The notes beneath the pieces are model-generated. The model was not told where the DNA came from. It did no database searches and was given only the letters and a program-made list of their open reading frames with translations. From an uncultured SAR116 cluster alpha proteobacterium (lineage in GTDB: Bacteria; Pseudomonadota; Alphaproteobacteria; Puniceispirillales; Marisalimonadaceae): a DNA stretch of 64,000 nt. Below are positions 4,814 to 24,580 of the stretch, one piece after another. Within the stretch, counting starts at the first letter, position 1; every line of letters begins with the position of its first letter. A program made the translations under genes and the position numbers. The stretch spans positions 1 to 64,000 of the forward strand of contig CACBDG010000006.1 in NCBI GenBank assembly GCA_902537945.1, read 5' to 3'.

Positions 4814-4871
4814 TTGGTAGCGGAGGAGGGACTTGAACCCCCGACACCCGGATTATGATTCCGGTGCTCTA
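4814..4871 (-). repeat. Left att copy: 3' fragment of tRNA-Met
   Basis: This is a 58-bp exact copy of 32222-32279. It contains the CCA end, T arm, variable loop and anticodon arm (CAT anticodon) of tRNA-Met on the minus strand, then diverges after GCTCTA where the D arm should follow. It cannot make a tRNA and is best read as the distal attachment site left by integration into the tRNA 3' end. Confidence 0.85.
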
Positions 4872-4924
4872 TACTTATAACTCTTTGTTTAATAACAATA
4901 TTTTTACTAATGTAAATTAGCTGC

Positions 4925-4940
4925 CACATCTCCGTCACAA
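4925..4940. repeat. 16-bp end-proximal direct repeat, left copy
   Basis: CACATCTCCGTCACAA occurs here and, in the same orientation, at 32129-32144, 54 bp and 77 bp inside the two att copies. At this copy the sequence also forms a hairpin (CTCCGT/ACGGAG, 4930-4945). Position suggests an integrase arm-type or excisionase site; that role is inferred. Confidence 0.55.
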
Positions 4941-4953
4941 CGGAGGGAAAATA

Positions 4954-5911
4954 GTGGCTAGTTTTCGTAAAAGAAATAACTTATGGCAAGTACAAGTAAG
5001 AAGCAAATACATAGGTTCTATATCTAAATCATTTCATAGTAAATCAGATGCTCAGAAATGGGCGAAAGAACAAGAAGTCTTGATGCAGTGTGGTCAATGG
5101 TCAAGGAGCAAAGAACAATCATTCACTCTTCATTCTCTCATAACAAGATATAAAAATGAAATTACACCAAAGAAAAGAGGGCTCATTTCAGAAGATCAAA
5201 GGTTAAGAAGGTTACTTAAAGAAAAAGACCTTATGAAAATACCTTTAGAAAGACTCCACCCCCCCTATTCTGGCTACTTTTAGAGACAGAAGACTAAAGG
5301 ATGGAGTTCGAGCTTGTCAGTATGATCTAGTTTTGATTAGACATGCTTGGAATATTGCATCTATAGAATGGGGCTGGGACTTAGGTGATAATCCAGTTGA
5401 AAAAATTAGACTGCCTAAAAATAATCCTCCAAGAGAAAGACGATTAAAACCCGGTGAATATGAAAGATTGAAGAGAGCATCCTCTGAAACAAAGGTTTGG
5501 TATCTATGGCCCATTATTGAATTTGCCATTGAAACAGGAATGAGACGAAGTGAGATCTTAAGTATGAAGTGGGAACATATTGGAATTGATAATCAAAGGG
5601 TCTTATTACCACTAACAAAGAATGGTAGTTCAAGATGGGTGCCTCTTACTAAGAAAGCTCTGGATATATTGAGCCAAGTTCCGCGGAACATTGACCGTGT
5701 GTTTCCTGTTACTGATGTGGCTTTGAGACAATCTTGGGAAAGACTTCGTAATAGAGCTAACCTAATTGACTTTACCTTTCATGATCTAAGACATGAGGCA
5801 ATATCTAGAATGTTTGAAAAAGGATTGAATGTACCAGAGGTTGCATCTATCAGTGGTCACAAGACAGCTAGTCAATTATTTAGGTATGTTCAAGTTAATG
5901 CTAGGTTATGA
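4954..5911 (+). pseudogene. Tyrosine recombinase/integrase, frameshifted in a C7 run
   Basis: The gene starts with GTG at 4954 behind a strong GGAGGG. The first frame encodes 109 residues (SAM-like N-terminal DNA-binding part) and ends at 5283. Removing one C from the C7 run at 5259-5265 joins it in frame to the catalytic domain, giving about 318 residues. The catalytic set is visible in the second frame: Arg in ETGMRRSE, Lys in LTKNGSS, HDLRH, SGHKTA and the Tyr of LFRYVQ. The protein ends abruptly just after this Tyr at NARL; its stop lies inside a 17-bp copy of initiator-tRNA sequence. It is either an inactivated integrase, a slippage-controlled one or an artefact of homopolymer miscalling. 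Confidence 0.8.
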
Positions 5912-5919
5912 GCCTGACG
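5903..5919. repeat. 17-bp initiator-tRNA anticodon-arm copy at integrase 3' end
   Basis: AGGTTATGAGCCTGACG here is identical to 14622-14638 inside the initiator tRNA fragment. It overlaps the last codons and the stop of the integrase. The anticodon loop is a usual crossover point for tyrosine integrases, so this may be the core of a second attachment site. The role is inferred. Confidence 0.5.
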
Positions 5920-6416
5920 TTTTTTAGGGATTTTTAGGGTTTTTTGTAATGTTTAGCTATAAGTTTAGCTATGAAATCTACTTTGCTTAAAATTTATAGC
6001 TAAACATTTTTAACCTGACGAACTTTAGTAAGGTTTATGTTGCCTGACGACCTTACTAATATTTAAATTAATATTATAAGGTGAATTTAATATTATTAGT
6101 TAAAAGGAAATTAATTTGAAGAATTGATTTTAATAAAGAGACTATTAAAAAATATGAGTATAAATATTAAAATTATTAAAACTCAAAATTTTAACTAATC
6201 TTTACAAATTTTTTTGCTTAAAAAAAATGAAGTACCAAACTAGGGGGGAATGATACTTCACTGAATAGGAGGGATATATATTTACTGTATTGTTTTTTTT
6301 CTGTTAAGCTAGGTATCAAAGTGATATCGAATAAAAAAACTAAATATGATTAAAATATCGACAATAATATAAGAATTTTATTATTTTTTTATAAAGAGTT
6401 AATAATAATTCATATT
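5912..6416. other. 505-bp region without intact gene: inverted repeats and gene scar
   Basis: The stretch holds GTTTAGCTATAA (5951-5962) inverted as TTATAGCTAAAC (5994-6005), with GTTTAGCTAT also repeated directly at 5963-5972. A 9-bp perfect inverted repeat, TTAGTAAGG/CCTTACTAA (6025-6033/6051-6059), follows. CCTGACG(A) occurs three times (5913, 6014, 6043). A deletion scar of an enolase-type gene lies at 6084-6178. TGAAGTA/TACTTCA (6227-6233/6254-6260) flanks a G-rich tract with two Shine-Dalgarno-like stretches and a four-codon frame. The repeats next to the integrase look like an att region; the rest is unexplained. Confidence 0.5.
6084..6170 (+). pseudogene. Deletion scar of a second enolase-superfamily gene
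   Basis: Bases 6084-6121 resemble the leader, ribosome binding site and TTG start of the intact gene at 11915 (compare 11881-11919). They are followed immediately by bases that match that gene's last 16 codons (IDFNKETIKKYEYKY and stop at 6168-6170) and its trailer to about 6178. Everything in between, about 1 kb, is missing, and the tail is out of frame with the start. This is what a large internal deletion of a paralogous copy would leave. Confidence 0.65.
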
Positions 6417-7967
6417 TTAATTATTTTTTTGCATCTCGTTAATTATATTTGTAACACCTATACCAACGGCTTCGTAGGCATCATATATTTCATCTGCTCC
6501 TGAATTTTCTAATATTTTTGTATTTTCATTTGATCTTGTTGGGACTATGATTTTTCCTATAAAGCCGTATCTTCTAGCTTGTAAAGTAGACCAATTTTGT
6601 GCATGAAATTCTGGTAATGCGAGTACAATAACTTTTAATTTTCCAAATCTTAATTTAGACCAAAATCCTGGATCTTCAGCATCAGCGAATGCCACCCTGT
6701 TTCCTTCTGATAATTTATTTAAAGCTATTTCTGTATCAGCGTCAACGCCTACAACTTTTAAACCTTTCTCAGTTAATTTATTAAAAATTGAACTCCCAAT
6801 TCTACCCATACCGACAATCATGATCTCAGCTTCTCCAAAAGTATGTGGTTGCTCATCAGGATGATGTTTTTCTCTTTCAAATTTTATTAAAAAATTTTCA
6901 AGATATACAAAAATTTCATGAACATATTTATTCAACACGGAACCAATAATAAAGCTAATACATACTGACAATACTAGAATAGCTAAAATCTTTTGGTCTA
7001 TTATATTTAAATCATACCAATATGTAGCAACTATGAGACTAAATTCTGAATAAGTTATTAATGAGATTGAAATTAAGAACGAAGAATATGCTCTCAAATT
7101 AAAGAAGATTAGTAGAAAAAATAAAGATAAAAACTTAACTACTAGCAATAAAATTAAGAAGAATGAATTTAAAATAATTTCCTGATTAAGATTTAATTTC
7201 ATTCCAAGAGATACAAAAAATGCTACTAGTAAAATCTCTCTTAAACTCCATATCTTTTCACCTAATCTATCAGCAAATTTAATGTTTGATAACATCATTC
7301 CCATTATTAGGGCACCTAATTCTCCCGACAAACCAAGTTTTTCAAACAAATATCCTCCTAAAAAAAGACCAATTAATACAGAAGTAAGCAGTTGTAATTC
7401 TTCATTTGATTGTAATTTTTCTAAAACGATTTTTACTATTGGAATGCATAAAGGAGTAAATAAAAGAAGAAGTGTATAAAATGATAAATTAGTTTCATTT
7501 GTATAAAGTAATAAAAAAAGAGCTAAAATATCTTGAAAAATTAAAATTAAGATTGAGTTTCTCCCATGAAAAGAATTAATTTCTTTTCGATCCTCGAGAG
7601 ATTTTGAGGCTATTACTGTGCTTGAAAAAGTTAAAATAATACAAAGCAAAATTTTTGCTTCGAAATCTATGTTTATATTTAATAAAATAAAATAAATTAG
7701 TGTTATTAATAAAGAATGGAGAAAAAAAACATTTAAAAAGCTTAAACTTAGAAATGAAGAAGGTTTTACCTTTAAGCCTATAGAAAAAAGTAATAATTCA
7801 ACACCAATTTTTGAGGGTATTGACAAAATTTCATCATTATCTGAAAAACTTATGTATGAGAAGAAATATCCAGAGGTTATAAAACCAATTAAAATTGGCA
7901 GTGATAAAACCTTGAAAATAAAACCAAAAAATAAAGCTCCACTCAACCAAATTAAGATCAAATCCAT
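6417..7967 (-). CDS. CPA2-family monovalent cation/proton antiporter with TrkA-N domain
   Basis: The 516-residue protein has about ten to twelve hydrophobic segments over residues 1-355, of the Na+/H+ exchanger (KefB/KefC/YbaL) type. A cytoplasmic Rossmann TrkA-N domain begins near residue 380, with GMGRIGSS and the acidic VGVDAD that bind a nucleotide. There is no TrkA-C domain. It should sit in the inner membrane and exchange K+ or Na+ for protons. The N-terminus starts inside a membrane helix, as usual for the family. It is transcribed alone, away from the carboxyltransferase gene behind it. Base composition is very AT-rich. Confidence 0.85.
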   Translation of the reverse strand: MDLILIWLSGALFFGFIFKVLSLPILIGFITSGYFFSYISFSDNDEILSIPSKIGVELLLFSIGLKVKPSSFLSLSFLNVFFLHSLLITLIYFILLNINIDFEAKILLCIILTFSSTVIASKSLEDRKEINSFHGRNSILILIFQDILALFLLLYTNETNLSFYTLLLLFTPLCIPIVKIVLEKLQSNEELQLLTSVLIGLFLGGYLFEKLGLSGELGALIMGMMLSNIKFADRLGEKIWSLREILLVAFFVSLGMKLNLNQEIILNSFFLILLLVVKFLSLFFLLIFFNLRAYSSFLISISLITYSEFSLIVATYWYDLNIIDQKILAILVLSVCISFIIGSVLNKYVHEIFVYLENFLIKFEREKHHPDEQPHTFGEAEIMIVGMGRIGSSIFNKLTEKGLKVVGVDADTEIALNKLSEGNRVAFADAEDPGFWSKLRFGKLKVIVLALPEFHAQNWSTLQARRYGFIGKIIVPTRSNENTKILENSGADEIYDAYEAVGIGVTNIINEMQKNN

Positions 7968-8213
7968 ACAGTAATATAGAATTAAATGATAAAAAAGTGT
8001 AAAAATAATAACTCGTGTGACCTTTTTTTATATTTTGAAGTTTTGTTTGATGAAAACTTCATCAATTCACAATGAAATTTATGATATATTTATTTCTAAA
8101 TTAGATTTCATTAAACTAATTAATTGCAACGACAGAATTAACTTAAAGCTTTATGATTAATATCTGGACCTTATTTAGTTGCCTGATAAATTATTCATTT
8201 TTTTAAGATAAGA

Positions 8214-10118
8214 CTAACTTTCAACTTCGAGTATTTTAATCATAAAATCATATAAACCAGGACCCTTTTGATCCACAGCATCCCTAATCGTGAGATGGAT
8301 GTTATTTGGATTATTTCCATTCAACATTATCATTTTCTGTCCATCTGTAAAATTAGCTTTAGACAGTTTTAAGGGGATATTTTGAATAATTAACCTCAAG
8401 CGCTCGATATTGGCTTTTAGCCATTTCTTTTCAAGATCTTCTTCCCCTGCTGGGAATATATATCGTCGGTCAACCAATTGTTTTATGTGAAGAACACGCT
8501 CAGCAATTTCTTGAAGTTTTGAGTAGCCCCCAATTGCACTAACTGCGTCTCTAATGTCACGATTAAATCCACTGCCGTCAGCACGTATCTTTGGGTTTGG
8601 GGGCATCGCATAAAATGGTAATTGAGGGGGGGTGTCTGGCGAGTTACACTCATTAGCGACGCTAAGTATATGCTCAATTGCCTTAAATGATCCTGAATCC
8701 TTAAGCAGTGAGGCAGAAATATTCTGGCGTAACGTAGGCTTTAACAAACCAACTTCAACTAATTTTTCTTCAGCATTTGGGATGCCATTAGGGCGATCGA
8801 CCGCCTTCGTATACTTTTCTGAAGTCTTCAGATTAAGTTGCTTTAAAGCCTTTTTTATTAGCTTTTTGCTAGTGCTAGATGGAACTTTTCCGTGACGTCC
8901 CACAAGATAATCAGCAATGCCAGGATAAAGAGAATGGTATTTGTCACGGCCTTCTAACTGATTCCAGAGTGATAGTGCAGCTTGACCAGTAGTATTTGCT
9001 GCATAAGGGGTAACTTGGGTTGGTTGACCAAGATCTTCTAAAATTTCTGCTTGCATTTTATATATTGCAATCTGGATTTGGTCCCAATCAGCATGATTAC
9101 CATTCACTCCTAAAAGCCGTCCAAGATTCTCAACCAGTCCAGGTATTGATTTAAGTGTTGCAGACGCTCCACCGGGTGTACGTGCGTCATACATTGCTTC
9201 TACAAGTTCAGAATTATAACGTGACTCTAAATCACGATATTGAAAACGCAACCTATAAAGGGAAGACATACTAGCCTTTATAGCATCGTTATTTAATTGT
9301 GGGGATTTTTTTGCAACTCTCTCATCAGGATAATTCCTTATAAGGTTTAACATCTTGTTCATGCTTGGTTGCGCTGTTGACCCTGAAAGAGCTGGATGTT
9401 GTACATCCATTGTTATGTCCTTATTTAACTCCACAGCTGCCAAAACCGCAGCCATGTAACAGACAGGGGCCTCACCATAAGTGGAGTGCGCATGAATGTT
9501 TACTTCATGGTCAGGAAAACGCTTATATAATGCTGATACAAGTTCATATACGAAATAGGCGCTTAATCTACCACTGGCAGATTTCAAATAAAATCCTTTA
9601 TGTCCAAGTTCTACAAGTTCATCAGCAAAAGCAATACATCTGGCAACAGTTATGTTTGGATTATCTTCAATACAAATTGTTCCCTGTGCTATAATATCAT
9701 AACCTGCACCTTGGGCTTCTGCGACTGCTTGAGCAACACCGGAAAGACATGCTGCATCATTAAGGCCGTGAAAATTCTGCAGGATATTCATTCCCATACT
9801 AGCATACTCAAAAACTACCGCTCTTATTACATCATATGGTTGAGGCTCATAACCAAGTAGAAAATCTCCACGTATAAGGGCAGATTGCCTCACCCCAAGG
9901 CTTTTAAAATGAAAAAGCAATTTTTCAACTTCTGCCCATTCATTTCGGCCTTTCTTGGCAAAAATATCAAAAAATGTACCCCCACCTGTTTGTATCGCGT
10001 CAGTACCAATCAGATGTGCGGTTGGATAAGAATCTATGATTTCCTGTGCAGACGGGTTAGTTCCAAATAAAGACTGAATAGAATCGCGTAAAACGTCTTG
10101 GAATTTTATTTTTGACAT
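8214..10118 (-). CDS. Carboxyltransferase-domain protein related to OadA/PycB, no biotin domain
   Basis: The N-terminal ~300 residues follow the HMGL-like TIM-barrel of oxaloacetate decarboxylase alpha and pyruvate carboxylase B: RDSIQSL with the metal-binding Asp12, Lys179 in YLKSASG at the place of the carbamylated lysine, and HAH (209-211). A TPGG stretch (near 325) marks the conserved carboxylase domain. The C-terminal part has no biotinyl (AMKM-type) domain. It may transfer carboxyl groups between biotin and a keto acid with a separate carrier, but no carrier or biotin carboxylase lies nearby. Sampled lines show about 37-42% G+C against roughly 18-30% in neighbours, which points to a different origin. 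Confidence 0.65.
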   Translation of the reverse strand: MSKIKFQDVLRDSIQSLFGTNPSAQEIIDSYPTAHLIGTDAIQTGGGTFFDIFAKKGRNEWAEVEKLLFHFKSLGVRQSALIRGDFLLGYEPQPYDVIRAVVFEYASMGMNILQNFHGLNDAACLSGVAQAVAEAQGAGYDIIAQGTICIEDNPNITVARCIAFADELVELGHKGFYLKSASGRLSAYFVYELVSALYKRFPDHEVNIHAHSTYGEAPVCYMAAVLAAVELNKDITMDVQHPALSGSTAQPSMNKMLNLIRNYPDERVAKKSPQLNNDAIKASMSSLYRLRFQYRDLESRYNSELVEAMYDARTPGGASATLKSIPGLVENLGRLLGVNGNHADWDQIQIAIYKMQAEILEDLGQPTQVTPYAANTTGQAALSLWNQLEGRDKYHSLYPGIADYLVGRHGKVPSSTSKKLIKKALKQLNLKTSEKYTKAVDRPNGIPNAEEKLVEVGLLKPTLRQNISASLLKDSGSFKAIEHILSVANECNSPDTPPQLPFYAMPPNPKIRADGSGFNRDIRDAVSAIGGYSKLQEIAERVLHIKQLVDRRYIFPAGEEDLEKKWLKANIERLRLIIQNIPLKLSKANFTDGQKMIMLNGNNPNNIHLTIRDAVDQKGPGLYDFMIKILEVES

Positions 10119-10455
10119 AGCAAATTTCTCAATATCAGTAGCAGTGTCAGTTTACTAAAGTACAAAATAGAAGTATGAATACGACCATTTTTAAGTTCTG
10201 TTTTTAACTTTTGAAAATTGAAACTTTAAACTAAAGTCTAGTCTTCATAAATATTATAGTTAGGTAAAGGTGTACTTAAAACAACAACAAGCCTAATTAT
10301 CTGACAAATTCATAAATCTGTTAATAAAGTGAGCAATATTTTAGTAAATTGTCTAAAATCAGCGATTAAATCTAGAAAGCTTTTCCAGGTTTATTTTATG
10401 ATAATTTGAAGGAGTTGGTTTTTATATAAATTTAATTTTAATAATGGAGCCCAAT
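10119..10455. other. Intergenic stretch between divergent genes, nothing recognised
   Basis: The 337 bp are AT-rich and must hold the promoters of the carboxyltransferase gene (leftward) and the SnoaL-like gene (rightward). I see no strong hairpin, operator or small gene. Confidence 0.4.
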
Positions 10456-10893
10456 ATGAATAAAAAAAATGATGATGATAAGTTAGCTGTTCAAAGTTTA
10501 TACAATTATGTAACTTTATTTAATGAAAAAAATAAGGATAAAATTTTAGACTGTCTTCATTTTCCACATATGGCTCAATCTGAAAATAACGACCCTGTAA
10601 TTTATAATAATAAAGAAGAAATATGGAGTTATCTAAGTTTTCTCTATAAGAAATTAGAGACCGAGGAAAATTGGGATCATTCAACATTAGACAAAGCTGA
10701 AATCATTCATAGTTCTAAAAATGCTGTTCAATGCAGTGTTGAGTTTAATAGAAGAGATAAGAATAAGAAAAGTTATGCAAAAGCAGTAGGTATATTTACT
10801 TCAACAAAAAAAAATGGAAAGTGGGGATTACAGTTAAGAATAATGATACCAGCTTCAGGCAATGTAACTTTGGCTGGAGCAAACATTAAATAA
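10456..10893 (+). CDS. SnoaL/NTF2-like hypothetical protein
   Basis: I start at the ATG at 10456 because GGAG ends six bases before it; an in-frame ATG at 10444 would place that site inside the gene. The 145-residue product has the helix-then-sheet character of the NTF2-like superfamily: an N-terminal helix (KLAVQSLYNYVTLFNEKNKD), a HFPHM segment, and a beta-rich second half ending in WGLQLRIMIPAS. Proteins of this kind are small isomerases, hydratases or ligand binders; no reaction can be assigned. The gene stands alone, ahead of an integrase relic. Confidence 0.6.
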   Translation: MNKKNDDDKLAVQSLYNYVTLFNEKNKDKILDCLHFPHMAQSENNDPVIYNNKEEIWSYLSFLYKKLETEENWDHSTLDKAEIIHSSKNAVQCSVEFNRRDKNKKSYAKAVGIFTSTKKNGKWGLQLRIMIPASGNVTLAGANIK

Positions 10894-10918
10894 GTCAGCT
10901 ATTGATTATTTTTGTTCA

Positions 10919-11056
10919 CTGTCGTCAACCACGTGCATTAGAAGCATGGAAAGGATTCGTAATGGGGCTAATTTACTTGACTGCATGTTCTGGGGTATAA
11001 GGCATAAAGCAATATCAATATTGGATTTATTTATATATTTTAGTACCATAAGATAA
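10919..11056 (+). pseudogene. Relic of a second tyrosine integrase
   Basis: In one frame the segment ERIRNGANLLDCMFWGIRHK aligns with ERLRNRANLIDFTFHDLRHE of the integrase at 4954-5911 and continues with AIS; about 14 of 24 positions agree around the HxxR box. The catalytic His of the box is replaced (FWGIRH), the preceding ~200 residues and the following His and Tyr boxes are gone, and the frame stops at 11054. It is a degenerate fragment of a related integrase, showing at least one earlier insertion in this region. Confidence 0.6.
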
Positions 11057-11095
11057 TTATCAAAAAATTAATAAATAAATTAAACTATAATTCCA

Positions 11096-11872
11096 ATGAA
11101 GTTAGAAAATAAATTAAAAGAGAAACTATTAAATAAAAAAAAGGTTCTCGGTTGCTGGACAAGCCTAGATAATGAGATAACTTCAGAATTACTTGCTCTA
11201 GTTGGATTTGATTTTTTGTTGATTGATCATGAACATGGTTATGGTGATGTAAAAGGCATAACTAGACAAATACAATCGCTCAAAGAAACTGAATGTTCCC
11301 CTTTGGTAAGAATGCCAAAAAGTGACGAGGTGTATGTAAAGAAAACTTTAGATACTGGGGTAAATAGTCTGATGTTTCCATTAGTAAATAATAAAAAAGA
11401 GGCTGAAAATATTGTAGAAATGTGTAGATATGCACCTAAAGGTTATAGAGGAATGTATATCAGCAGAGCTTCAAATTATGGGATGAACATAAAGAAATAT
11501 TATGAAACTATTGAAAAAAATTTGCTGATAGTTTGTCAAATTGAAACTTCTGAAGGTGTTTCTAATATTGAAGAAATATCAGAAGTTGATGGTATTGATA
11601 TGTTGTTTATTGGTCCGATGGATCTCTCTACTAGTATTGGTAAGTTTGGACAATTTAGCGATCCAGTATTTATAGAAACAGTTAATTTAGCAAAAGAAAA
11701 AATAATGAATTCTAAAAAGTTTTCTGGAATGATGCCCTATGGAAATTATGATTGGAAAGATGTGTTTTCACAAGGTTTTGATTTAACTACAGCAGGTACA
11801 GAACTTTCAATATTAAGAGATTCAGCAATTTCAATCTTAAAGGAGTTTAATAATTTAAGGATAAACAAATGA
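11096..11872 (+). CDS. HpcH/HpaI-family class II aldolase
   Basis: The 258 residues cover a complete HpcH/HpaI TIM barrel: LIDHEHGYGD (about 42-51), the metal-ligand Glu in CQIETSEG (about 152), and IGPMDLSTSIG (about 176-186), the conserved loop with an Asp that completes the Mg2+ site. Family members split 2-keto-3-deoxy acids or malyl-type compounds into pyruvate plus an aldehyde. Together with the following enolase-superfamily gene (43 bp downstream), which could dehydrate a sugar acid to a keto-deoxy acid, it suggests a short sugar-acid catabolic pathway; that link is inferred. Confidence 0.85.
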   Translation: MKLENKLKEKLLNKKKVLGCWTSLDNEITSELLALVGFDFLLIDHEHGYGDVKGITRQIQSLKETECSPLVRMPKSDEVYVKKTLDTGVNSLMFPLVNNKKEAENIVEMCRYAPKGYRGMYISRASNYGMNIKKYYETIEKNLLIVCQIETSEGVSNIEEISEVDGIDMLFIGPMDLSTSIGKFGQFSDPVFIETVNLAKEKIMNSKKFSGMMPYGNYDWKDVFSQGFDLTTAGTELSILRDSAISILKEFNNLRINK

Positions 11873-11914
11873 ATAAAACTAAATTTAATATTAATTATTA
11901 AAAGGGAGATTAAT

Positions 11915-13009
11915 TTGAAAAAACCTTTAGTTAAGAGTTTGTCTGTTATTACTGTAAATGTACCTTTAAAAAGACCTATAGTTGCCTCATTAGGAACATT
12001 TGAATATTGGCCGTATATGCTAATTGAAATATCTTTAAGCGATGGAACAATTGGTAAAGGTTATATTGGTCCGTACTTAGTAGATTATACTCAAACTATT
12101 ACGTTAGCAATGAAAGAGCTTTTTAAAAATTTTCAAAATAGAGAAATTGCTCCTTATCAGTTTTATAATGAGGGTATGAATCATTTAAGTTTATTAGGAA
12201 GATCAGGAATTGCACTTTATGCTTTAGCCGGACTAGATATAGCTTTTTGGGATGCCTGTTCTAAAATATGTAATGAGCCATTATGTGTTCACTTAGGTGG
12301 ATCAGTAGATAAGGTTAAGGCATATAACTCCAGTGGATTATGGCTAGATGATCCCCAAACATTATATGATGAAGCATTGACTCTAATATCAGAAGGAAAT
12401 TTTGATGCTGTAAAGGTTAGATTAGGTAGAAAAAAATTAGATGAAGACCTCAAAGCAATTGAAAATGTTAAAAAAGGTATTGGGGTTAATTCAGAACTTC
12501 TTTGTGATTTTAATCAATGCTTATCACTACCACAAGCAATACATAGGTTAAATGATTTGGATGATCAGGGATTATATTGGTTTGAGGAACCAATAAAATA
12601 TTATGAGTTTGAAGGTTACAAAGAATTAAGAAAAAGAATGAAAACACCAATCATTTTAGGAGAAAACTTTCATGGTTATGATGATGCTTTTACTGCTTTA
12701 AAAAATCAAATTGCAGATTTTATAATGCCAGATTTATTAAGAATTGGTGGTGTAAGTGCTTGGCTCAAAACTGCATCTATTGCTGAAGCATTTCAAATAT
12801 CTGTTTCTTCTCATTTGTATCACGAAGTCTCATCTCATCTAATGCGCGTAACACCAACAGCAGGTTATTTAGAGTGGACTAGATGGTCAGACATTATTTT
12901 AGAAGAGCCATATGAATTAAGTGATGGACATGTAGTAATACCTAATAAAATAGGGACTGGCATTGATTTTAATAAAGAGACTATAAAAAAATATGAATAT
13001 AAATATTAA
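11915..13009 (+). CDS. Enolase-superfamily (mandelate racemase/muconate lactonizing-like) enzyme
   Basis: The start is TTG at 11915, supported by GGGAG eight bases upstream. The 364 residues include a capping domain and the barrel motifs of the mandelate racemase group: VKVRLG (KxR base motif), a metal-ligand Asp in LLCDFNQ, a Glu in WFEEPI, a GEN in ILGENFHG, and a catalytic-type His region SSHLYHEVSSH near residue 305. Likely reactions are dehydration or epimerisation of a sugar acid. It follows the HpcH/HpaI aldolase and precedes a methyltransferase gene. A deletion scar of a close paralogue lies at 6084-6178. Confidence 0.85.
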   Translation: MKKPLVKSLSVITVNVPLKRPIVASLGTFEYWPYMLIEISLSDGTIGKGYIGPYLVDYTQTITLAMKELFKNFQNREIAPYQFYNEGMNHLSLLGRSGIALYALAGLDIAFWDACSKICNEPLCVHLGGSVDKVKAYNSSGLWLDDPQTLYDEALTLISEGNFDAVKVRLGRKKLDEDLKAIENVKKGIGVNSELLCDFNQCLSLPQAIHRLNDLDDQGLYWFEEPIKYYEFEGYKELRKRMKTPIILGENFHGYDDAFTALKNQIADFIMPDLLRIGGVSAWLKTASIAEAFQISVSSHLYHEVSSHLMRVTPTAGYLEWTRWSDIILEEPYELSDGHVVIPNKIGTGIDFNKETIKKYEYKY

Positions 13010-13068
13010 AATTATTTTATATGTAAATTAAAGAATTAAATAAATTAAAATAAATAGCGGAAGCAATA

Positions 13069-14424
13069 ATGTTAAAAAAACATCAAATAAGTGGTCTGAT
13101 GGATCATCTCAAAATAAATAAAGCATTTATTGCTAGTCAATGTTCAAATGACATTGAAGATTTTTGTTCAGAATATCATAATAAGATCCTTGGTTTAAGC
13201 TTGGTGGTCCCAATTACTATTAACTCAAAAAAGTTTTCAGAGCTTGAACAAAAAATCATGGTCTTAAAGAGTGAGTTTGGCGTTACAGCTAACTCAGTTA
13301 ACACATTAAAGAATGAAATAAGTAATTTAGAAATTATTCAATTGAATAATTACGAAGCCCTTGCTTGGTCTGATATTTGTGAAGATAAATCAAGTGAAAC
13401 ATGTGAAGCATTAATCTCATTTTTTAAGGGCTTAAATATAGAAAACTACTCTGTAAAAATAAATAATCAAAAAGGACAATTTGAAAATATTTCTTATAAA
13501 GTGATTGGTGAAGGCCCCCCACTTTTACTATTTCCATTTTTTTTATCTGCTAAACAATGGAACCCTATAATTCAAAAATTATCTGATTTTTTCACGCTAG
13601 TTATAATTGGTGGAAAAGATTTTGGAGCAATTCCTTCATTAGAAGATAGAGCAGAGTTACCTACTTATAAAGCAATGCTAGAAACATTAGTATCGAATAT
13701 GAATATCTCCAAAAACGGTAAAGTTTTAGAATTAGGTTGTGGCCCTGCTTCATTATGTAGACAAGTATTAAAACTTAGAAAAGATCTGTCGCTGGTTGGT
13801 GTTGATATAAATGAATATTTGTTAACAGAGGGTAGTAAAATTGCTCAAGATCAAAATTTCAAAGTTAATCCTTTTTTTAAGAATAATTCTCAACCTTCAA
13901 GATCAAATTTAAAACCTAATGAACTTAATTTGTCTTATAGTGATGCTACTGACATTTCATTTCCAGATAATTTTTTTGACGCAGTTTACTCAGTTACCGT
14001 ACTTGAGGAATGTGATGCACAGAAATCAATTGCAGAAATCAAAAGAGTTCTTAAACCTGGTGGTGTTGCTGGCATTGTAGTTAGAGCATTAGATGCACCT
14101 CAATGGTGGAATATAAAAGTTTCAGATTCAGTTAACAAAATTATCAGTGTACCACCTCAGATGGTATCTCCAAAAGGTGTTGCTGACATGTCTTTATATG
14201 AAAAAATAAAACTGGCAAATTTTAAAGATATTCTTTCATATCCCTTTTGGTTTACAGCTTCTTCAGGTAATAACAGTTATATATATAACATGTATTACGG
14301 GAGAGCACGACAACTCTTAAATAACAAGCAACAAGAAGAATTCGACAAAGAAATAAAAAATGTAAATGAAAAAAGTCAATCTATTTTATCAGTACCACTT
14401 CATTGTTGTATCGGATATAAGTAG
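13069..14424 (+). CDS. SAM-dependent methyltransferase with unusual N-terminal region
   Basis: Residues 219 onward form a class I methyltransferase: VLELGCGPASLC (motif I), the acidic VGVDIN (motif II), DATDISFPDNFFDAVYSV and the LKPGG signature, fitting the Methyltransf_11 family. Residues 1-200 are separate: a helical part, then a stretch with the rhythm of an alpha/beta-hydrolase N-terminus (YKVIGEGPPLLLFPFFLSAK) but without a nucleophile elbow. The substrate is unknown. The gene ends the aldolase/enolase cluster, 59 bp after the enolase-type gene, and has no helical membrane segment. The methyltransferase call is firm; the N-terminal reading is tentative. Confidence 0.75.
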   Translation: MLKKHQISGLMDHLKINKAFIASQCSNDIEDFCSEYHNKILGLSLVVPITINSKKFSELEQKIMVLKSEFGVTANSVNTLKNEISNLEIIQLNNYEALAWSDICEDKSSETCEALISFFKGLNIENYSVKINNQKGQFENISYKVIGEGPPLLLFPFFLSAKQWNPIIQKLSDFFTLVIIGGKDFGAIPSLEDRAELPTYKAMLETLVSNMNISKNGKVLELGCGPASLCRQVLKLRKDLSLVGVDINEYLLTEGSKIAQDQNFKVNPFFKNNSQPSRSNLKPNELNLSYSDATDISFPDNFFDAVYSVTVLEECDAQKSIAEIKRVLKPGGVAGIVVRALDAPQWWNIKVSDSVNKIISVPPQMVSPKGVADMSLYEKIKLANFKDILSYPFWFTASSGNNSYIYNMYYGRARQLLNNKQQEEFDKEIKNVNEKSQSILSVPLHCCIGYK

Positions 14425-14586
14425 AAATGATATATATTTAAAAATAAAATAAAACTCTATTTAAAAACAGAAAACCTGACGACCGGTTGGTATAATGGTT
14501 GGTACAAACACTTAAAGTTACAACAAAAAACCCCAAAAACCGAAGTCTTTGAGGGTGATCTAAGTCATTGATTTTATTGAATAAGT

Positions 14587-14643
14587 TGGTTGAGGGGGTA
14601 GGATTTGAACCTACGACCTTCAGGTTATGAGCCTGACGAGCTA
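14587..14643 (-). pseudogene. 3' fragment of an initiator tRNA-fMet gene
   Basis: Read on the minus strand, 57 bases correspond to initiator tRNA from TAGCTCGTC through an anticodon loop CTCATAA (anticodon CAT), the T arm and an encoded CCA. The 5' third (acceptor strand and most of the D arm) is missing, so it is not functional. A truncated 3' tRNA end is the usual mark of an integration site. The 17-bp core is shared with 5903-5919. Confidence 0.75.
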
Positions 14644-14660
14644 GGAATATATTAAACGAA

Positions 14661-14763
14661 AGGTTACTGCACCCTTTTCCTAATCAACAATGATCAATGG
14701 TCAGGGGTGGTCTGCCTATTGACCGTAGTCCATGGAACACGGACCAGGGTTCAATGATGGGTT
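14661..14763. repeat. Repeat R1, ~103 bp, copy 1 of 3
   Basis: This copy begins AGGTTACTGCACCCTTTT and ends TGATGGGTT. It is about 90% identical to R2 (22160-22263), and its first part matches R3 (28801-28852). Inside are short inverted words (ATCAAT/ATTGACC, GGTCAG) that could fold. It codes for no protein. It lies 17 bp from the initiator tRNA fragment, at the border before the urea operon. Confidence 0.8.
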
Positions 14764-15048
14764 TGAAATAAGATTGATTTAGTAAACTATAAGTTAATTT
14801 TAAATTACAAATTTTCTGTACAATCAAAATCCAATTATAAATAATTAGCAATTTATTTTAAATTAAATTTGACCAAAAAATAATCAATTTCAAATTGGAC
14901 TAATTTTAATTGAATTTCAAATAATTGATATAATTGAATAAAATTTAAATTTCAAATCTCAACAGACGTGGGTTCTAATATTTGCAATTCATAAAAATAA
15001 CTCATCAATATTTACTGTTCTTATTTAATTCGAGAAAGGTGAAATATT

Positions 15049-16320
15049 ATGAGATTATTAATTACTATATTGTTTTTATGTTTTAGCAGTCTAGGTTTTG
15101 CAGATGGACATAAGAAGCCAATAAAAATTGGAATTTTACATTCATTATCTGGAACAATGGCTATTTCAGAAACTACATTAAAAGATACAATGTTGATGTT
15201 AATTGAACAACAAAACAAAAAAGGTGGCATCTTAGGTAGAAAAATAGAGCCCGTAGTTGTTGATCCCGCCTCAAATTGGCCCTTATTTGCTGAAAAAGCG
15301 AGAGAACTTTTAACAGTTCAAAAAGTTGATGTTTTATTTGGGTGTTGGACTTCTGTCTCAAGAAAATCTGCACTACCAGTTCTTGAAGAGTTAAACGGTT
15401 TACTTTTTTATCCAGTACAATATGAAGGAGAAGAGAGCTCTAAAAATGTTTTCTATACAGGCGCATCTCCAAATCAGCAGGCTATCCCAGCAACAGATTA
15501 TTATTTAGAAGAGCTTGATGTTAAAAAGTTTGCTTTATTAGGAACTGACTACGTATATCCTAGAACAACTAATAAAATCTTGAAACAATATCTTATAGAT
15601 AAAGGAATACCAGAAAGTGATATTTTTGTAAATTATACTCCATTTGGACATTCTGATTGGTCTAAAATTGTTTCAGATGTAGTTTCTTTAGGAGCTGATG
15701 GTAAAAAAGTTGGAGTTATTTCTACCATTAATGGAGATGCTAATATTGGATTTTATAAAGAGTTAGCTGCTGCAGGTGTTAAAGCAGATGATATCCCGGT
15801 AGTTGCCTTTTCAGTTGGTGAAGAAGAATTATCTGGATTAGATACAACAAATTTAGTTGGTCACTTAGCAGCATGGAATTATTTTCAGTCAGCTGAATCT
15901 GATCTTAATTCAAGTTTTATAAAAGATTGGAAAGCTACAATGGGAAATAAAAGAGTTACAAACGATCCTATGGAAGCTCACGTTATTGGATTTAACATGT
16001 ATGTTAAGGCCGTTGAAAAGGCCGGAACTACAGATGTTGATGCTGTTAGAAAAGCTATGTATGGTATTAAAGTTCCAAACTTGACTGGTGGTACGGCTGA
16101 AATGTTGCCAAATCATCATTTATCTAAGCCTGTCTTAATTGGTGAAATATTGGAAAATGGCCAGTTTGACATTATAAGTCAAACTAAGGAAGTGCCAGGA
16201 GATGCATGGACAGATCATTTACCTGAATCTGCTGTTTTAAAATCTGATTGGAAGTCCCTTGGTTGTGGTATGTACAATACTAAGACAAATACTTGTATTC
16301 AACTCAAGTCAAATTATTAG
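15049..16320 (+). CDS. urtA: Urea ABC transporter, substrate-binding protein
   Basis: A signal peptide (about residues 1-18, ending FADG) precedes a 400-residue type I periplasmic binding protein. The sequence KIGILHSLSGTMAISE, the segment FGCWTSVSRKSALPV, FYPVQYEGEESSKN and the end (GDAWTDHLPES) are characteristic of UrtA rather than of leucine-binding proteins. It captures urea (or short amides) in the periplasm. GAGAAAGG lies upstream of the ATG. It heads the urtABCDE operon and is separated from urtB by a strong hairpin. No urease gene is visible in the window. Confidence 0.92.
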   Translation: MRLLITILFLCFSSLGFADGHKKPIKIGILHSLSGTMAISETTLKDTMLMLIEQQNKKGGILGRKIEPVVVDPASNWPLFAEKARELLTVQKVDVLFGCWTSVSRKSALPVLEELNGLLFYPVQYEGEESSKNVFYTGASPNQQAIPATDYYLEELDVKKFALLGTDYVYPRTTNKILKQYLIDKGIPESDIFVNYTPFGHSDWSKIVSDVVSLGADGKKVGVISTINGDANIGFYKELAAAGVKADDIPVVAFSVGEEELSGLDTTNLVGHLAAWNYFQSAESDLNSSFIKDWKATMGNKRVTNDPMEAHVIGFNMYVKAVEKAGTTDVDAVRKAMYGIKVPNLTGGTAEMLPNHHLSKPVLIGEILENGQFDIISQTKEVPGDAWTDHLPESAVLKSDWKSLGCGMYNTKTNTCIQLKSNY

Positions 16321-16335
16321 ATAAACTATATTGAG

Positions 16336-16364
16336 GATAATGCTATGGTTTCCATAGCATTATC
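16336..16364. terminator. Strong hairpin between urtA and urtB
   Basis: GATAATGCTATGG (16336-16348) pairs perfectly with CCATAGCATTATC (16352-16364) across a three-base loop. No T-tract follows, so it is more likely an mRNA-stabilising or partial-attenuation structure than a full terminator. It would let the binding protein be made in excess of the membrane parts, as is common for such operons; this effect is inferred. Confidence 0.7.
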
Positions 16365-16375
16365 AATATTAATTT

Positions 16376-18388
16376 ATGAAGTACTTATTAATTATTTTAT
16401 TTTCATTATTAAGTTTCAATTCTGCATTTTCAGAAGAGAACTTTGACAATTTTTTATTTAAAAACTCTAAACTGATTATAAATAGTTCTTCAAAAACAGT
16501 TGGAACATTTTTAGAAAAAATAAATGTTTATGATCAAAATACCGTATCAAGATTTTTAAATCTCTGGAAAAATAAGAAATTATTTTACATAAAAGAAACA
16601 AAAAAAATTGTACTAATTTCCAAGTTTGATAATAAAACATATTACGCAATTGATATTTTTTCCAACGCTAAAATTGGAAAAAAGAAAAAAAAAGATTTCA
16701 AAAAAATAAAACCGAATAGTGGTGTAAGGGCAAAGATTGCAACTGCACTTGTGAACTTTCAAATATTTAGTAATGATAAAAATAAAAGAATAAATAGCAT
16801 AAATGCTCTTGAAAAAAAAATATTACCTGAACATTTAAAACTCCTTAGAAAAGCATTTTTATTAGAGGAAGATGATAGGTTAAAAATTAAAATAAAAAAA
16901 TTATTACAATTTGCAATTTTACAACATGGAACTGACGATAAAGAGAAAATTAAAGTTCTGAATGAATTAATGACTAATACTTCAATAGAAGTAAGAGCAG
17001 TTTTGTCAAAACTCCTAAGGACATCTGAAATTAAAGTTACTAGAAATATTGAAGATTTAAATAATTTAAATATTGCTCAAATAATTAAACCAGAAGTAAT
17101 TAGTAAAAAACAATTCGATGAAGTTATAAAAAGTTTTTTCTATAAAGAAAAATTAAAACTTAGTGTTATTGATGCTTACAAAATAGCACAAAAAAATGGA
17201 TTTTTAGATAAGAGAGTCAGTTTAAATGAATTAAAAATAATTTTAGAAAATAACATTGTCGACAATAAAATTTTAGGAATTGATATAAAGGAATTTAATG
17301 AAAATTCTAAAAGAATCGAAGTTTATAATAAATTAGCCAAGATAAAAAATCTTAATATTTATCGAGATGAAACAGAATTATTAAATGATTTAAAACAACT
17401 ACATTTTTACAAAATTTACATTGAGAAAAATAAATACATAACAAACAAGACTAAACAAGTTTTAGATTCAATTAATTTTAAAGTTAAATTCTATAAGTAT
17501 TTAGATTTATTTATTGATGGTCTTAGTCTTAGTTCTATATATTTTCTTGGTGCTATTGGCTTGGCAATAACATTTGGAGTCATGCGTGTGATTAATATGG
17601 CTCACGGTGAATTTATAATGATGGGAGCTTATACTGGCTATGTTGTTCAATCATATATTACTAATCATACATTATCTCTGATAATAGCTTTTCCTCTCGC
17701 TTTTATAATTACTTTTATTGCAGGGGTTATAATGGAAAGGTTGGTGATAAAACATTTATATAAAAATCCTCTTGATACTTTGCTAGCAACTTTTGGTATA
17801 AGTATAGCTCTTCAACAACTTGCTAAAAATATTTTTGGTACTCAGGCTAGACCTTTAACATCACCTTCTTGGTTAGATGGATCTTTAATAATAAATGATG
17901 ATCTTTCGATAAGTTACATTAGGATAGCTATATTTGTTTTGGGAGTTTTATTTTTTTTAATATTATTATTTGTAATGAAAAAAACTAGATTTGGATTAGA
18001 AACTAGATCCGTAACTCAAAACCCTGTAATGGCATCGAACATGGGTGTTAACACTGAAAAAATAAATATGTTAACTTTTGGTTTTGGGTCAGGCATTGCT
18101 GGTGTTGCTGGTGTTGCTATAGGTTTGTTTTCCAAGGTCACATCTGAACTTGGCTCAGAATACATTGTTCAAAGTTTTATGACAGTTGTAGTTGGTGGTG
18201 TAGGAAGTATTTGGGGTACACTTGCAGGCGCTTCATTAATTGGCTTTTTACAAAAGTTTATAGAATGGTTTAATCCTTCTAATACATTAGCTGCTCAAAC
18301 ATATATGATTATATTTATAATTTTATTTATTCAATTTAGACCAAGGGGATTAATTGCCTTAAAAGGGAGAGCAGCAAATGATAACTGA
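16376..18388 (+). CDS. urtB: Urea ABC transporter permease with long N-terminal extension
   Basis: The C-terminal ~290 residues are a LivH-type permease with NMAHGEFIMMGAYTGY and the EAA-like GVNTEKINMLTFGFGSG loop. The first ~370 residues comprise a signal peptide (ending near FSEE) and a mostly periplasmic, Lys-rich helical region with HEAT-like pairs (for example ILQHGTDDKEKIKVLNELMT). UrtB proteins normally carry such an extension, but this one, at 670 residues overall, is longer than the usual 500-550. It forms the inner-membrane channel with UrtC. Its end overlaps urtC by 11 bp. Confidence 0.9.
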   Translation: MKYLLIILFSLLSFNSAFSEENFDNFLFKNSKLIINSSSKTVGTFLEKINVYDQNTVSRFLNLWKNKKLFYIKETKKIVLISKFDNKTYYAIDIFSNAKIGKKKKKDFKKIKPNSGVRAKIATALVNFQIFSNDKNKRINSINALEKKILPEHLKLLRKAFLLEEDDRLKIKIKKLLQFAILQHGTDDKEKIKVLNELMTNTSIEVRAVLSKLLRTSEIKVTRNIEDLNNLNIAQIIKPEVISKKQFDEVIKSFFYKEKLKLSVIDAYKIAQKNGFLDKRVSLNELKIILENNIVDNKILGIDIKEFNENSKRIEVYNKLAKIKNLNIYRDETELLNDLKQLHFYKIYIEKNKYITNKTKQVLDSINFKVKFYKYLDLFIDGLSLSSIYFLGAIGLAITFGVMRVINMAHGEFIMMGAYTGYVVQSYITNHTLSLIIAFPLAFIITFIAGVIMERLVIKHLYKNPLDTLLATFGISIALQQLAKNIFGTQARPLTSPSWLDGSLIINDDLSISYIRIAIFVLGVLFFLILLFVMKKTRFGLETRSVTQNPVMASNMGVNTEKINMLTFGFGSGIAGVAGVAIGLFSKVTSELGSEYIVQSFMTVVVGGVGSIWGTLAGASLIGFLQKFIEWFNPSNTLAAQTYMIIFIILFIQFRPRGLIALKGRAANDN

Positions 18389-19547
18389 CATGAATAAATC
18401 TATAAAAAAACATTCGCTGATTTTTTTAATAACTATTTTTTTATTTACGTTGTTAGTCACCTTTTTAAGTGAACCTTTTGGTATAAACTTTATATCAACA
18501 AGCTTTGTAAAAGTCCTTGGAAAAACTCTTTGCTTATGTATTGCTGCAATTGCTATGGATGTTGTGTGGGGGTATTGTGGTATTTTATCCTTAGGTCATT
18601 TTGCTTTTTTTGGCTTAGGTGGATACATGATAGGCATGTGGTTAATGTATGAGAGAACGTCTATTATTGTATTGAATTCTTTAGATGACTCACAATTACC
18701 CTTTACTGAGATAGAATTACAAGAAGCGATAGGTAATCAAATTTTTGGTGTTGTTGGAGGAACAGAAATACCACTTATTTGGACATTTGCAGATAATTTA
18801 TATTTTCAAATAATTTTTGTTATTTTAATCCCTGGTTTAATAGCATTTATTTTTGGTTGGCTAGCTTTTCGTTCAAGAGTAACTGGAGTATATTTGTCAA
18901 TTTTGACTCAAGCAATGACCCTAGCTTTATCTTTATATCTATTTCAAAATGATAGCGGGTTAAGAGGAAATAACGGATTGTCTGGATTGCAAAATATTCC
19001 TCATCTTGAAAACTTAAGTCAATCTACAATTTCAATATTATTTTTATGGTTAAGTTCAATCGGACTTATATTTTCATTTGTAATTTTTAATTATATAATT
19101 CAAAGTAAATTTGGATCAGTAATTACCGCTATCAGAGACAATGAAACGCGTCTTCGTTTTTTTGGATACAATGTAGAAATATACAAACTTTTTATATTTG
19201 TTATCACAGCCATAATTACTGGATTAGCAGGAGCTATATATTATCCTCAAGCTGGTATAATAAACCCAGCTGAGATTGCTCCTATTGCCTCAATATATTT
19301 AGCTGTCTGGGTTGCTATTGGTGGACGAGGAAAATTGTATGGTGCAATTTTAGGTGCAGCTTCTGTTTCTTTGCTATCCTCTTGGTTTACTGGAGGAAAT
19401 GCTCCAAATATTCCCCTCGGTTTTTTTACAATTGAATGGGTGAATTGGTGGACTGTATTTTTAGGAATTGGTTTTGTGGCAATAACAATTTTTAGTAAGG
19501 GTGGTTTAATTGGTATGCTAAATACATTATTGGTTAAAATCAAATGA
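18378..19547 (+). CDS. urtC: Urea ABC transporter permease UrtC
   Basis: This LivM-type permease of 389 residues has about ten membrane segments, the SLGHFAFFGLGGYMIG motif and the cytoplasmic loop AIRDNETRLRFFGYNVE that contacts the ATPases. It starts inside urtB with GGAG upstream and ends with ATGA shared with urtD. It is the second channel subunit of the urea importer. Confidence 0.9.
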   Translation: MITDMNKSIKKHSLIFLITIFLFTLLVTFLSEPFGINFISTSFVKVLGKTLCLCIAAIAMDVVWGYCGILSLGHFAFFGLGGYMIGMWLMYERTSIIVLNSLDDSQLPFTEIELQEAIGNQIFGVVGGTEIPLIWTFADNLYFQIIFVILIPGLIAFIFGWLAFRSRVTGVYLSILTQAMTLALSLYLFQNDSGLRGNNGLSGLQNIPHLENLSQSTISILFLWLSSIGLIFSFVIFNYIIQSKFGSVITAIRDNETRLRFFGYNVEIYKLFIFVITAIITGLAGAIYYPQAGIINPAEIAPIASIYLAVWVAIGGRGKLYGAILGAASVSLLSSWFTGGNAPNIPLGFFTIEWVNWWTVFLGIGFVAITIFSKGGLIGMLNTLLVKIK

Positions 19548-20284
19548 AAACGTTGTTAGAAGTTGATAATGTTTCAATCTCTTTTGACGGTTTTAAAGCA
19601 ATAAAAAATTTAAGTTTTTCAATAGGGTATAATGAATTACAAGCCATTATTGGACCAAATGGCGCAGGGAAAACTACTTTTATGGATATAATTACAGGTC
19701 AAACAAAGCCAGATAATGGACATATTTTATGGGGAGAAAAAAGTATTGATCTAATCAGAAAAACAGAATCAGAAATAGCATTACTTGGTATTGGACGAAA
19801 ATTTCAAAAACCTACGGTATTTGAAAATAAAACAATTATTGATAATTTAATTTTATCTCAGAAAAAAAATAGAAATCCATTTAAGGTTTTATTTCAAAAA
19901 AATACAAAATCTGAGCTTACAAGCATTGAAAAAATTTTAAAAGATATAAATCTTTACATGATTAAAGATAGTATTGCTGGTGAGATTAGCCATGGTCAGA
20001 AGCAATGGTTAGAGATTGGGATGCTTTTAAGCCAAAATCCAAAATTAATGCTCATTGATGAACCTGCTGCAGGCATGACACAAACTGAGAGAAATCAAAC
20101 AGTTAGTATTTTAAAAAATATTGCAAAATCTAGTTCAATTATTGTGGTTGAACATGATATGGAGTTTGTACGTAATTTAAATTGTCGAGTAACAGTACTT
20201 AATGAAGGTAGCATTCTTTCTTCTGGTTCAATTGACTTTATAACTCAAAATGAAAAAGTCATAGAGGTTTATTTAGGAAGATAA
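19544..20284 (+). CDS. urtD: Urea ABC transporter ATP-binding protein UrtD
   Basis: The 246 residues hold a Walker A (GPNGAGKTT, about 38-46), a Q-loop, a signature segment ISHGQKQWLEIGMLL that is typical of UrtD (LivG type), Walker B (LMLIDEPAAGMT) and the switch His in VVEHDMEFV. It powers urea import at the cytoplasmic face together with UrtE. Its ATG overlaps the urtC stop by four bases, and urtE follows after two bases. Confidence 0.93.
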   Translation: MKTLLEVDNVSISFDGFKAIKNLSFSIGYNELQAIIGPNGAGKTTFMDIITGQTKPDNGHILWGEKSIDLIRKTESEIALLGIGRKFQKPTVFENKTIIDNLILSQKKNRNPFKVLFQKNTKSELTSIEKILKDINLYMIKDSIAGEISHGQKQWLEIGMLLSQNPKLMLIDEPAAGMTQTERNQTVSILKNIAKSSSIIVVEHDMEFVRNLNCRVTVLNEGSILSSGSIDFITQNEKVIEVYLGR

Positions 20285-20286
20285 TT

Positions 20287-20982
20287 ATGCTTGATGTTAA
20301 AAAAATAAATTTAAATTATGGCTCTTCTCAAATCTTGTTTGATGTTTCAATAAAAGCCAAAAAAGGCAATATAACATGCTTAATGGGATCAAATGGCGTA
20401 GGTAAAACTTCTTTACTTAAATTTTTGTCTGGAATACAAAATGCAAAAAATGGAACTTATTTCTATAATAACAATGATATATTTAATCTTCCATCTTACA
20501 AACTGGCAAAATTAGGAATTGGATACGTTCCTCAAGGAAGAGATATATTTCCCCTTTTAAGTGTTAAAGAAAATTTAGAAATTGGATTTGCATGTTTGAA
20601 TAAAAAAAATTGGTTTATCCCTGATGAAATATTTAACTTATTTCCAATATTAAAAAAAATGCTTCATAGGAGAGGTGGAGATTTGTCTGGAGGACAACAA
20701 CAACAGTTGGCTATTGCAAGAGCACTTGTTGCAAAACCAAGTTTATTATTGATGGATGAGCCTACTGAGGGTATTCAACCGAATATAATTAAACAAATAG
20801 GCGAGGTAATCTTATATTTAAAAAAAGAAAAAAAAATTACAATATTTTTAGTCGAACAATATTTTGATTTTGCATTTAATCTTTCTGATTATTTTTATGT
20901 AATGCAAAGGGGGAAAATAATTATAGAAGGAGATAAAGAAAAACTAGGTAAAAAATTACTTAAATCTCAATTAAGTTTTTAG
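20287..20982 (+). CDS. urtE: Urea ABC transporter ATP-binding protein UrtE
   Basis: This is a LivF-type ATPase of 231 residues with Walker A (GSNGVGKTS), a Q-loop in YVPQGRDIFP, the signature LSGGQQQQLAIARAL and Walker B with the UrtE-typical DEPTEGIQPNII. It pairs with UrtD. It is the last gene of the operon, and its 3' end overlaps the end of the convergent LysR gene by 12 bp. Confidence 0.93.
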   Translation: MLDVKKINLNYGSSQILFDVSIKAKKGNITCLMGSNGVGKTSLLKFLSGIQNAKNGTYFYNNNDIFNLPSYKLAKLGIGYVPQGRDIFPLLSVKENLEIGFACLNKKNWFIPDEIFNLFPILKKMLHRRGGDLSGGQQQQLAIARALVAKPSLLLMDEPTEGIQPNIIKQIGEVILYLKKEKKITIFLVEQYFDFAFNLSDYFYVMQRGKIIIEGDKEKLGKKLLKSQLSF

Positions 20983-21858: not shown

Positions 21859-21983
21859 AGTTAAGCATCTCTAATATTTGAAATTCTTCAATTCTAATTA
21901 ATGCAACTCTGAATGTATTAATCAGAGATTCAATATAGTTTGAAAATAGTTAATATATAAAGAATATCCTCCCTACCCGCTTG

Positions 21984-22014
21984 AGAGCATACTCTGTATT
22001 ACAGAGTATGCTCT
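21984..22014. repeat. Perfect 13-bp palindromic hairpin
   Basis: AGAGCATACTCTG pairs with CAGAGTATGCTCT over a five-base loop (TATTA). No T-tract follows on either strand, so a simple intrinsic terminator is unlikely. It stands 126 bp upstream of the LysR start and could be an operator or an mRNA structure. Confidence 0.6.
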
Positions 22015-22159
22015 AATAAAATTAAAATGAAATTATTTTAAAAAACTATTAAATTTATATTATAAGTGAACATCTTTTAATCATTTGATTTTTATAATAT
22101 AATGATCATTAGATAATTAATTAACAAAAATTTTATATTGAAAATTCTAATTTTAACTG

Positions 22160-22263: not shown

Positions 22264-22347
22264 ATTGGAGTTTGTAATTAGTAGTTTTGTTTAAAGTCTT
22301 TAATCATTTCAATAATTTTAAAAAAAAATTAATGTGTATTTACATTA

Positions 22348-22530: not shown

Positions 22531-22567
22531 TTTACTCTACTAGACAAAATTATAGTTTAATCATGTG

Positions 22568-23614: not shown

Positions 23615-23619
23615 AACAT

Positions 23620-24570: not shown

Positions 24571-24580
24571 AATTTTTTCC

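Follow-up and report, generated by a model that had tools for sequence, protein, structure and literature searches.

The locus and its features

The window, that is, the whole stretch of 64,000 nucleotides that was analysed, comes from an uncultured SAR116 cluster alphaproteobacterium and contains an orphan carboxyltransferase-like gene, here called CT, within an integrated island. The features referred to below, in window coordinates, are as follows.

4814..32279: integrated island of 27.5 kb, defined by 58-bp exact direct repeats and by empty sites in four relatives
4814..4871, minus strand: left end of the island, 58 bp that repeat the 3' part of tRNA-Met(CAT)
4954..5911, plus strand: tyrosine integrase, two ORFs in this assembly, with the Phage_integrase domain in 5333-5911
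5903..14638: 8.7-kb cargo unit with CT, with a 17-bp exact core at each end
6417..7967, minus strand: Na_H_Exchanger plus TrkA_N antiporter adjoining CT, on the same strand
8214..10118, minus strand: CT, an ORF of 634 residues with an ATG start
9219..10118, minus strand: TIM-barrel domain of CT, residues 1-300, from structural alignment with an approximate boundary, bearing D12, K179, H209 and H211 (metal), Q15, D51, R83, Y90 and T248
8829..9065, minus strand: PYC_OADA (funnel) domain match, CT residues 352-430, Pfam, below cut-off
8217..8633, minus strand: C-terminal helical domain of CT, residues 496-634, with neither a sequence match nor a clear fold match
10444..10893, plus strand: 149-residue ORF divergent from CT, with no Pfam match
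11096..11872, plus strand: HpcH/HpaI-type aldolase of the CT cargo unit
11915..13009, plus strand: mandelate racemase/enolase-superfamily enzyme of the CT cargo unit
13069..14424, plus strand: methyltransferase-domain protein of the CT cargo unit
14586..14643, minus strand: 3' fragment of tRNA-fMet at the edge of the CT unit
29407..31674, minus strand: primase-helicase (Prim-Pol/PriCT-2/D5_N), 755 residues
32222..32299, minus strand: intact tRNA-Met(CAT) gene, right end of the island
52195..54025, plus strand: AccB and AccC, a possible in-trans carboxyl donor, outside the island

CT is a distant relative of biotin-dependent carboxyltransferases

The matches of CT to the OadA/PycB families are significant, yet they fall far under every equivalog cut-off. 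The protein scores 135.3 bits (2.3e-39) against the NCBIfam oadA model TIGR01108, for which the curated cut-off is 756.5, and 120.5 bits against PRK14041, for which it is 734. In Pfam, PYC_OADA is matched at 24.9 bits against a cut-off of 27, and HMGL-like is likewise under its cut-off. The best match in the PDB by sequence is OadA 2nx9 (2.2e-22), and profile-profile comparison with ten OadA/PycB-type proteins aligns residues 2-428 with a probability of 99.9%. The structure predicted from an 11-row alignment is of medium confidence (pLDDT 66.5). Residues 1-488 of this model align with OadA 2nx9 with a Z of 23.6 over 374 residues (rmsd 5.3 Å), in keeping with the relationship to OadA/PycB that an earlier note on this DNA had proposed; for transcarboxylase 5S the fold Z is 23.4, and pyruvate carboxylase (PC) is similar. 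Among the structural neighbours of the barrel are also aldolases, for example 1nvm, and the homocitrate synthase 2zyf. By its sequence matches CT is a real but distant relative of OadA, PycB, PC and transcarboxylase 5S, and its description as a divergent, stand-alone carboxyltransferase-like enzyme of the OadA/PycB/5S lineage is secure.

The putative active site

The metal positions, including that of the carbamyl-Lys, are kept as the earlier note had said: all 11 rows of the CT family, all ten OadA/PycB-type rows and one PC agree at D12, K179, H209 and H211, and they also agree at Q15, D51 and R83. Y90 and T248 are common to most of the OadA/PC rows, T248 aligning with their Thr; from a reading of the motif, we take T248 to be the counterpart of Thr882 of R. 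etli PC. A study of that enzyme describes Thr882 as catalytically essential (PMC5895798). Metal-dependent chemistry on a 2-oxo acid is well supported for CT, as judged from these residues.

There are, on the other hand, 12 positions that are fixed in the CT family and fixed to another residue in all the OadA/PycB/PC rows: G19, T48, K55, E63, Y95, H117, E151, S180, A228, L335, I359 and L384. Among these T48 replaces Ala, H117 replaces Asp and S180 replaces the Asp that follows the carbamyl-Lys position. The pocket would thus not be that of a standard pyruvate enzyme, and these fixed departures make a new substrate, as the earlier note had considered, more plausible. T48 aligns with the residue altered in the A59T variant of 5S, the chain of which (1s3h) has Thr there, and CT scores the variant above the wild type (80.0 against 78.0 bits and, in a second comparison, 79.2 against 77.1). 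PDB titles also record a mutant of S. aureus PC, A610T, at what we presume from our mapping to be the same position as 5S A59T and CT T48. PC A610T and M743I are linked to human disease; a literature search gave no paper joining A610T, M743I and pyruvate carboxylase.

The most conserved stretch of the family, over ten of its 11 rows (the fragment in locus L015 being left out), is residues 345-413, with a mean pairwise identity of 0.83 and 38 of 69 columns invariant. This would fit a retained docking site. Conservation is lower in residues 414-495 (0.50) and 496-634 (0.59).

The C-terminus: predicted helices and no biotinyl domain

Pfam finds no biotinyl domain in CT, the last 208 residues being without any match. 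In OadA/PycB this domain sits where CT has helices, and most of the comparison proteins show a C-terminal motif of the EAMKMET type. Folded alone, residues 496-634 (about 139 residues) are predicted to form a helical domain (pLDDT 88.4, pTM 0.81). The absence of a biotin domain, noted earlier from the sequence, holds, with a different predicted domain in its place. A PDB profile search with this domain gave at best an E of 0.087, to a design construct; Foldseek gave zero matches at E <= 0.001, and VIA-align gave many helical bundles, with a best Z of 5.7, and no usable match. These missing matches do not establish a new fold.

Potential partners of CT

A search of the island and of 28 loci that contain homologues or stretches around islands (445,656 bp, overlaps included) found no gene for a biotin carboxylase, a biotin carrier or a PccB/MccB-type protein. 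The queries were AccB, AccC, PccA, MccA, PccB, MccB, PC and a small carrier, and AccBC was recovered in the window as the positive control. The description of CT as an orphan is therefore upheld, and close homologues do not always lie beside a biotin carboxylase or carrier, the arrangement that would have spoken against it. A literature search found no paper joining carboxyltransferase, SAR116 and biotin.

AccB (52195-52671) and AccC (52679-54025), the pair with which CT may act according to the earlier note, are encoded in the same genome as CT. In this genome, which is about 75% complete, the carriers encoded are AccB, PccA, MccA and a stand-alone protein of 71 residues, and Biotin_carb_C is found only in AccC, PccA and MccA, so that no dedicated pyruvate biotin carboxylase is seen. 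The gene for the 71-residue carrier is chromosomal and adjoins a second PccB-like carboxyltransferase (locus L069, 4491-6274), with no biotin carboxylase in the 9 kb covered there. As an obligate partner of CT this carrier was rejected: it is present in 17 of the 136 genomes of the SAR116 order, and only five of the 17 genomes with CT have it, the well-completed genomes G398, G431, G423, G438 and G432 being absent from its matches.

A conserved partner in the neighbourhood was rejected as well, since the genes beside CT vary among the deep branches. They are the antiporter, epoxide-hydrolase-like, MetF-like, GalU-like, the end of a urease cluster, sterol-desaturase-like, an ABC ATPase and cytochrome-c-like, the names outside the Pfam-annotated ORFs of the window having been read from the ORFs by eye. 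The antiporter lies beside CT only in close loci (the window, L003, L004, L005, L007 and L011). In one SAR116 MAG a partial homologue lies just downstream of a cluster that by eye is urt-urease-like (L015, 217-11097), possibly by coincidence.

Distribution, composition and selection

CT was found in 17 of the 136 genomes of the order. Fifteen of the copies cover 626 or more of the 634 query residues without a break; a contig end cuts the copy in G873, and in the assembly of G387 a frameshift divides the copy in two. In a sample of the class, CT was found in two of 385 genomes, its own genome counted. In a sample of 398 genomes of the phylum (E <= 1e-25), its own genome and 11 others gave matches, those in the 11 others being OadA-type and only 29-32% identical. 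Homologues 56-59% identical are found in two other Alphaproteobacteria, G346 (also L012) and L014, the latter a MAG, and in the order of G346 one of six genomes has one. CT homologues thus form a narrow, patchy family of the SAR116 order and two other Alphaproteobacteria. PYC_OADA was matched in 18 of the 136 order genomes, 16 of these matches being CT and the other two a PC-like frame of 1154 residues (G425) and an OadA-like frame (G842). The plasmid collection gave only distant PC/OadA-type matches, all below 60% identity and none covering 80% of the query. A viral origin was rejected, a scan of viral_contigs with the CT family alignment having found no relative.

CT is more GC-rich than its neighbours, as had been noted: its GC content of 0.398 (39.8%) is the highest of the 45 window ORFs compared, and its third-position GC of 0.285 gives a z of 4.4 against the other 44. 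Homologues from other branches of the order (loci L015, L042, L043, L044, L045 and L050) have a GC of 0.47-0.59, closer to that of their own surroundings. Because of this resemblance the simplest reading is that CT would be a partly ameliorated transfer from relatives of this kind. Purifying selection acts on CT, with dN/dS (NG86) of 0.06-0.15 in the six pairs that could be computed, two further pairs being saturated, and CT is thus a real, selected gene and not a chance ORF.

CT is cargo of a tRNA-targeted island

An exact 58-bp repeat bounds the island. One copy lies at 4814-4871; the other, at 32222-32279, is the 3' part of the intact tRNA-Met. The integrase gene adjoins the left repeat, and the primase/helicase gene is near the other end. 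At the same site in locus L011 the integrase is intact as one ORF of 318 residues, and in four relatives (L088-L091 in G396, G388, G401 and G386) the site is empty, the chromosomal flanks meeting at one tRNA-Met.

Within the island, an exact 17-bp sequence from the anticodon region of tRNA-fMet occurs at 5903-5919 and 14622-14638 (chance expectation 0.01) and delimits the unit that carries CT. From 5903 to 14637 the window shares 98.97% identity, across 8,737 bp, with a different locus in G407 (L052), and from 5965 to 12904 it is 99.05% identical to L003, which its length and match position place in G398; the chromosomal flanks of both genomes are 84-86% identical to those of the window. Elsewhere CT is found near tRNA-fMet (L005 and L009, the initiator type being our own reading of the tRNA sequence) and near tRNA-Ser and an integrase-like fragment (L010). 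CT has spread as cargo of tRNA-targeted islands among SAR116 bacteria. Its foreign composition, to which the earlier note had drawn attention, is explained by its being cargo of the 27.5-kb island, whose site is empty in relatives and whose CT unit is 99% identical between genomes with flanks at about 85%. Pieces like the tRNA-fMet fragment at 14586-14643 are also present in L005, L007, L009, L011 and L052.

The islands of G403 and G387 at the same site have the integrase and primase ends in common and differ in cargo. In G387, CT and the transporter module (14717-22201, 99.4%) are present and the metal module is absent; in G403, the metal module and primase (22352-32523, 96.1%) are present and CT is absent. 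The transporter module is an ABC transporter set of the urea/branched-chain type (15049-20982, 99.4% identical in G387), with a Peripla_BP_5 binding protein and, by eye, four more genes. The metal-uptake-like module (22568-28393, common to G403) encodes a FecCD permease, a binding protein, an ABC ATPase, a FUR-family regulator, a CobW GTPase and a WD40-repeat protein. A repeat of about 100 bp lies at the borders of the cargo modules (14656-14763, 22155-22263 and 28801-28847) and also occurs in L009, L010, L007, L092 and L093. The islands of the three genomes at this one tRNA site differ by whole modules, each with a start or a stop on or close to one of these repeats, which hints at an exchange of cargo there. 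The repeats at 14656-14763 and 22155-22263 were rejected as folded attC-like sites or RNAs, their folding being no better than that of shuffles, and Rfam found only tRNA pieces in them.

Possible functions of CT

As both the biotin-carrying part and the partner genes have been lost, CT probably acts on a small organic acid in a way that is related to, but distinct from, that of its relatives. Our best guess, offered tentatively, is a carboxyltransferase that acts on a 2-oxo acid with its biotin carrier supplied in trans by AccB/AccC. The metal site would enolise pyruvate or a relative, and the substrate might be a product of the aldolase and dehydratase enzymes of the cargo unit. A biotinylated carrier from another part of the genome, of which AccB charged by AccC is the simplest candidate, would dock in trans at the PYC_OADA-like segment and give or take the carboxyl group, and the helical C-terminal domain may have a role in assembly or docking. 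In this explanation the physical description is secure, and least certain is the step in which biotin acts in trans. Counted against it are the absence of partner genes near CT, the failure of the 71-residue carrier to track it, the 12 substitutions and the scores of PYC_OADA and HMGL-like under the Pfam cut-offs.

Several of these points would be accounted for if CT were a metal-dependent, biotin-independent decarboxylase or aldolase of 2-oxo acids, in which a helical domain for oligomerisation or regulation had taken the place of the carrier domain, and this has a real chance of being correct. The carrier domain is gone, no partner lies in the loci, the stand-alone carrier does not track CT, 12 residues invariant in the biotin-dependent relatives are replaced and the barrel has 1nvm and 2zyf among its neighbours. 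Also in its favour is work on the carboxyltransferase of PC, which reports a rate of oxaloacetate decarboxylation without oxamate that was subtracted from the total to give the biotin-dependent rate (PMC5895798). The strong conservation of the catalytic Thr, Y90, D51 and the PYC_OADA-like segment, on the other hand, would be unexpected if biotin never entered CT, and as a best guess we place AccB-dependent carboxyl transfer in trans above biotin-independent chemistry. The fuller account, in which CT is carrier-free, possibly biotin-independent and specific for a different 2-oxo acid, having arisen by a domain swap and the refixing of 12 residues and being traded on tRNA-targeted islands, is possible, though less likely than not.

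It is unlikely that CT is an ordinary PycB or OadA with its partners encoded elsewhere in the genome. Although oadA and pycB are the closest named families, and an anaplerotic role would be free since hardly any other PYC_OADA protein occurs in the order (a PC- or OadA-like match in just two of the 136 genomes, against 16 with CT), the equivalog scores are far too low, the biotinyl domain is missing, no dedicated pyruvate biotin carboxylase is seen in the approximately 75% complete genome, and T48 stands at the 5S A59T position, with the variant outscoring the wild type against CT. That CT is a decaying island gene without function is very improbable and strongly disfavoured, for all its foreign composition, mobile context, one frameshift-split copy in 17 (G387) and split integrase in the window, given the low dN/dS in six pairs, the 15 uninterrupted copies and a metal site that is invariant even in members just 59% identical to CT.

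If active, CT would show the stand-alone use of a subunit of a swinging-carrier carboxylase, either by borrowing the carrier of fatty-acid synthesis or by giving up biotin. The island accounts for its movement among abundant, mostly uncultured SAR116 bacteria.

Comparison with known systems

The island resembles the tycheposons, of which Hackl et al. 2023 is reportedly the defining paper, and other tRNA-targeted cargo islands of marine bacteria. Tycheposons are described as 4-200 kb in size, with tRNA-Met borders and a XerD-type recombinase (PMC10872708). The CT island, which sits in SAR116, has a tRNA-Met border, a tyrosine recombinase, transport cargo and a fitting size, the likeness being judged by these features.

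With OadA/PycB, CT shares the TIM barrel, the PYC_OADA-like segment, the Lys/Asp/His/His metal positions and the region of the catalytic Thr, but it is without the biotinyl domain, has a helical C-terminus, has no biotin carboxylase (PycA) adjoining it in the loci and differs at the twelve otherwise invariant positions. Transcarboxylase 5S of Propionibacterium, a carboxyltransferase that uses the 1.3S carrier in trans, is similar in fold and likewise has no built-in carrier domain. In contrast to 5S, CT has no 12S-like (PccB-type) or carrier relatives near it in the loci, and has a natural Thr at the position of A59. Because this is the position altered in 5S A59T and, by our mapping, in PC A610T, CT could reveal what such a change to the pocket does in a working enzyme.
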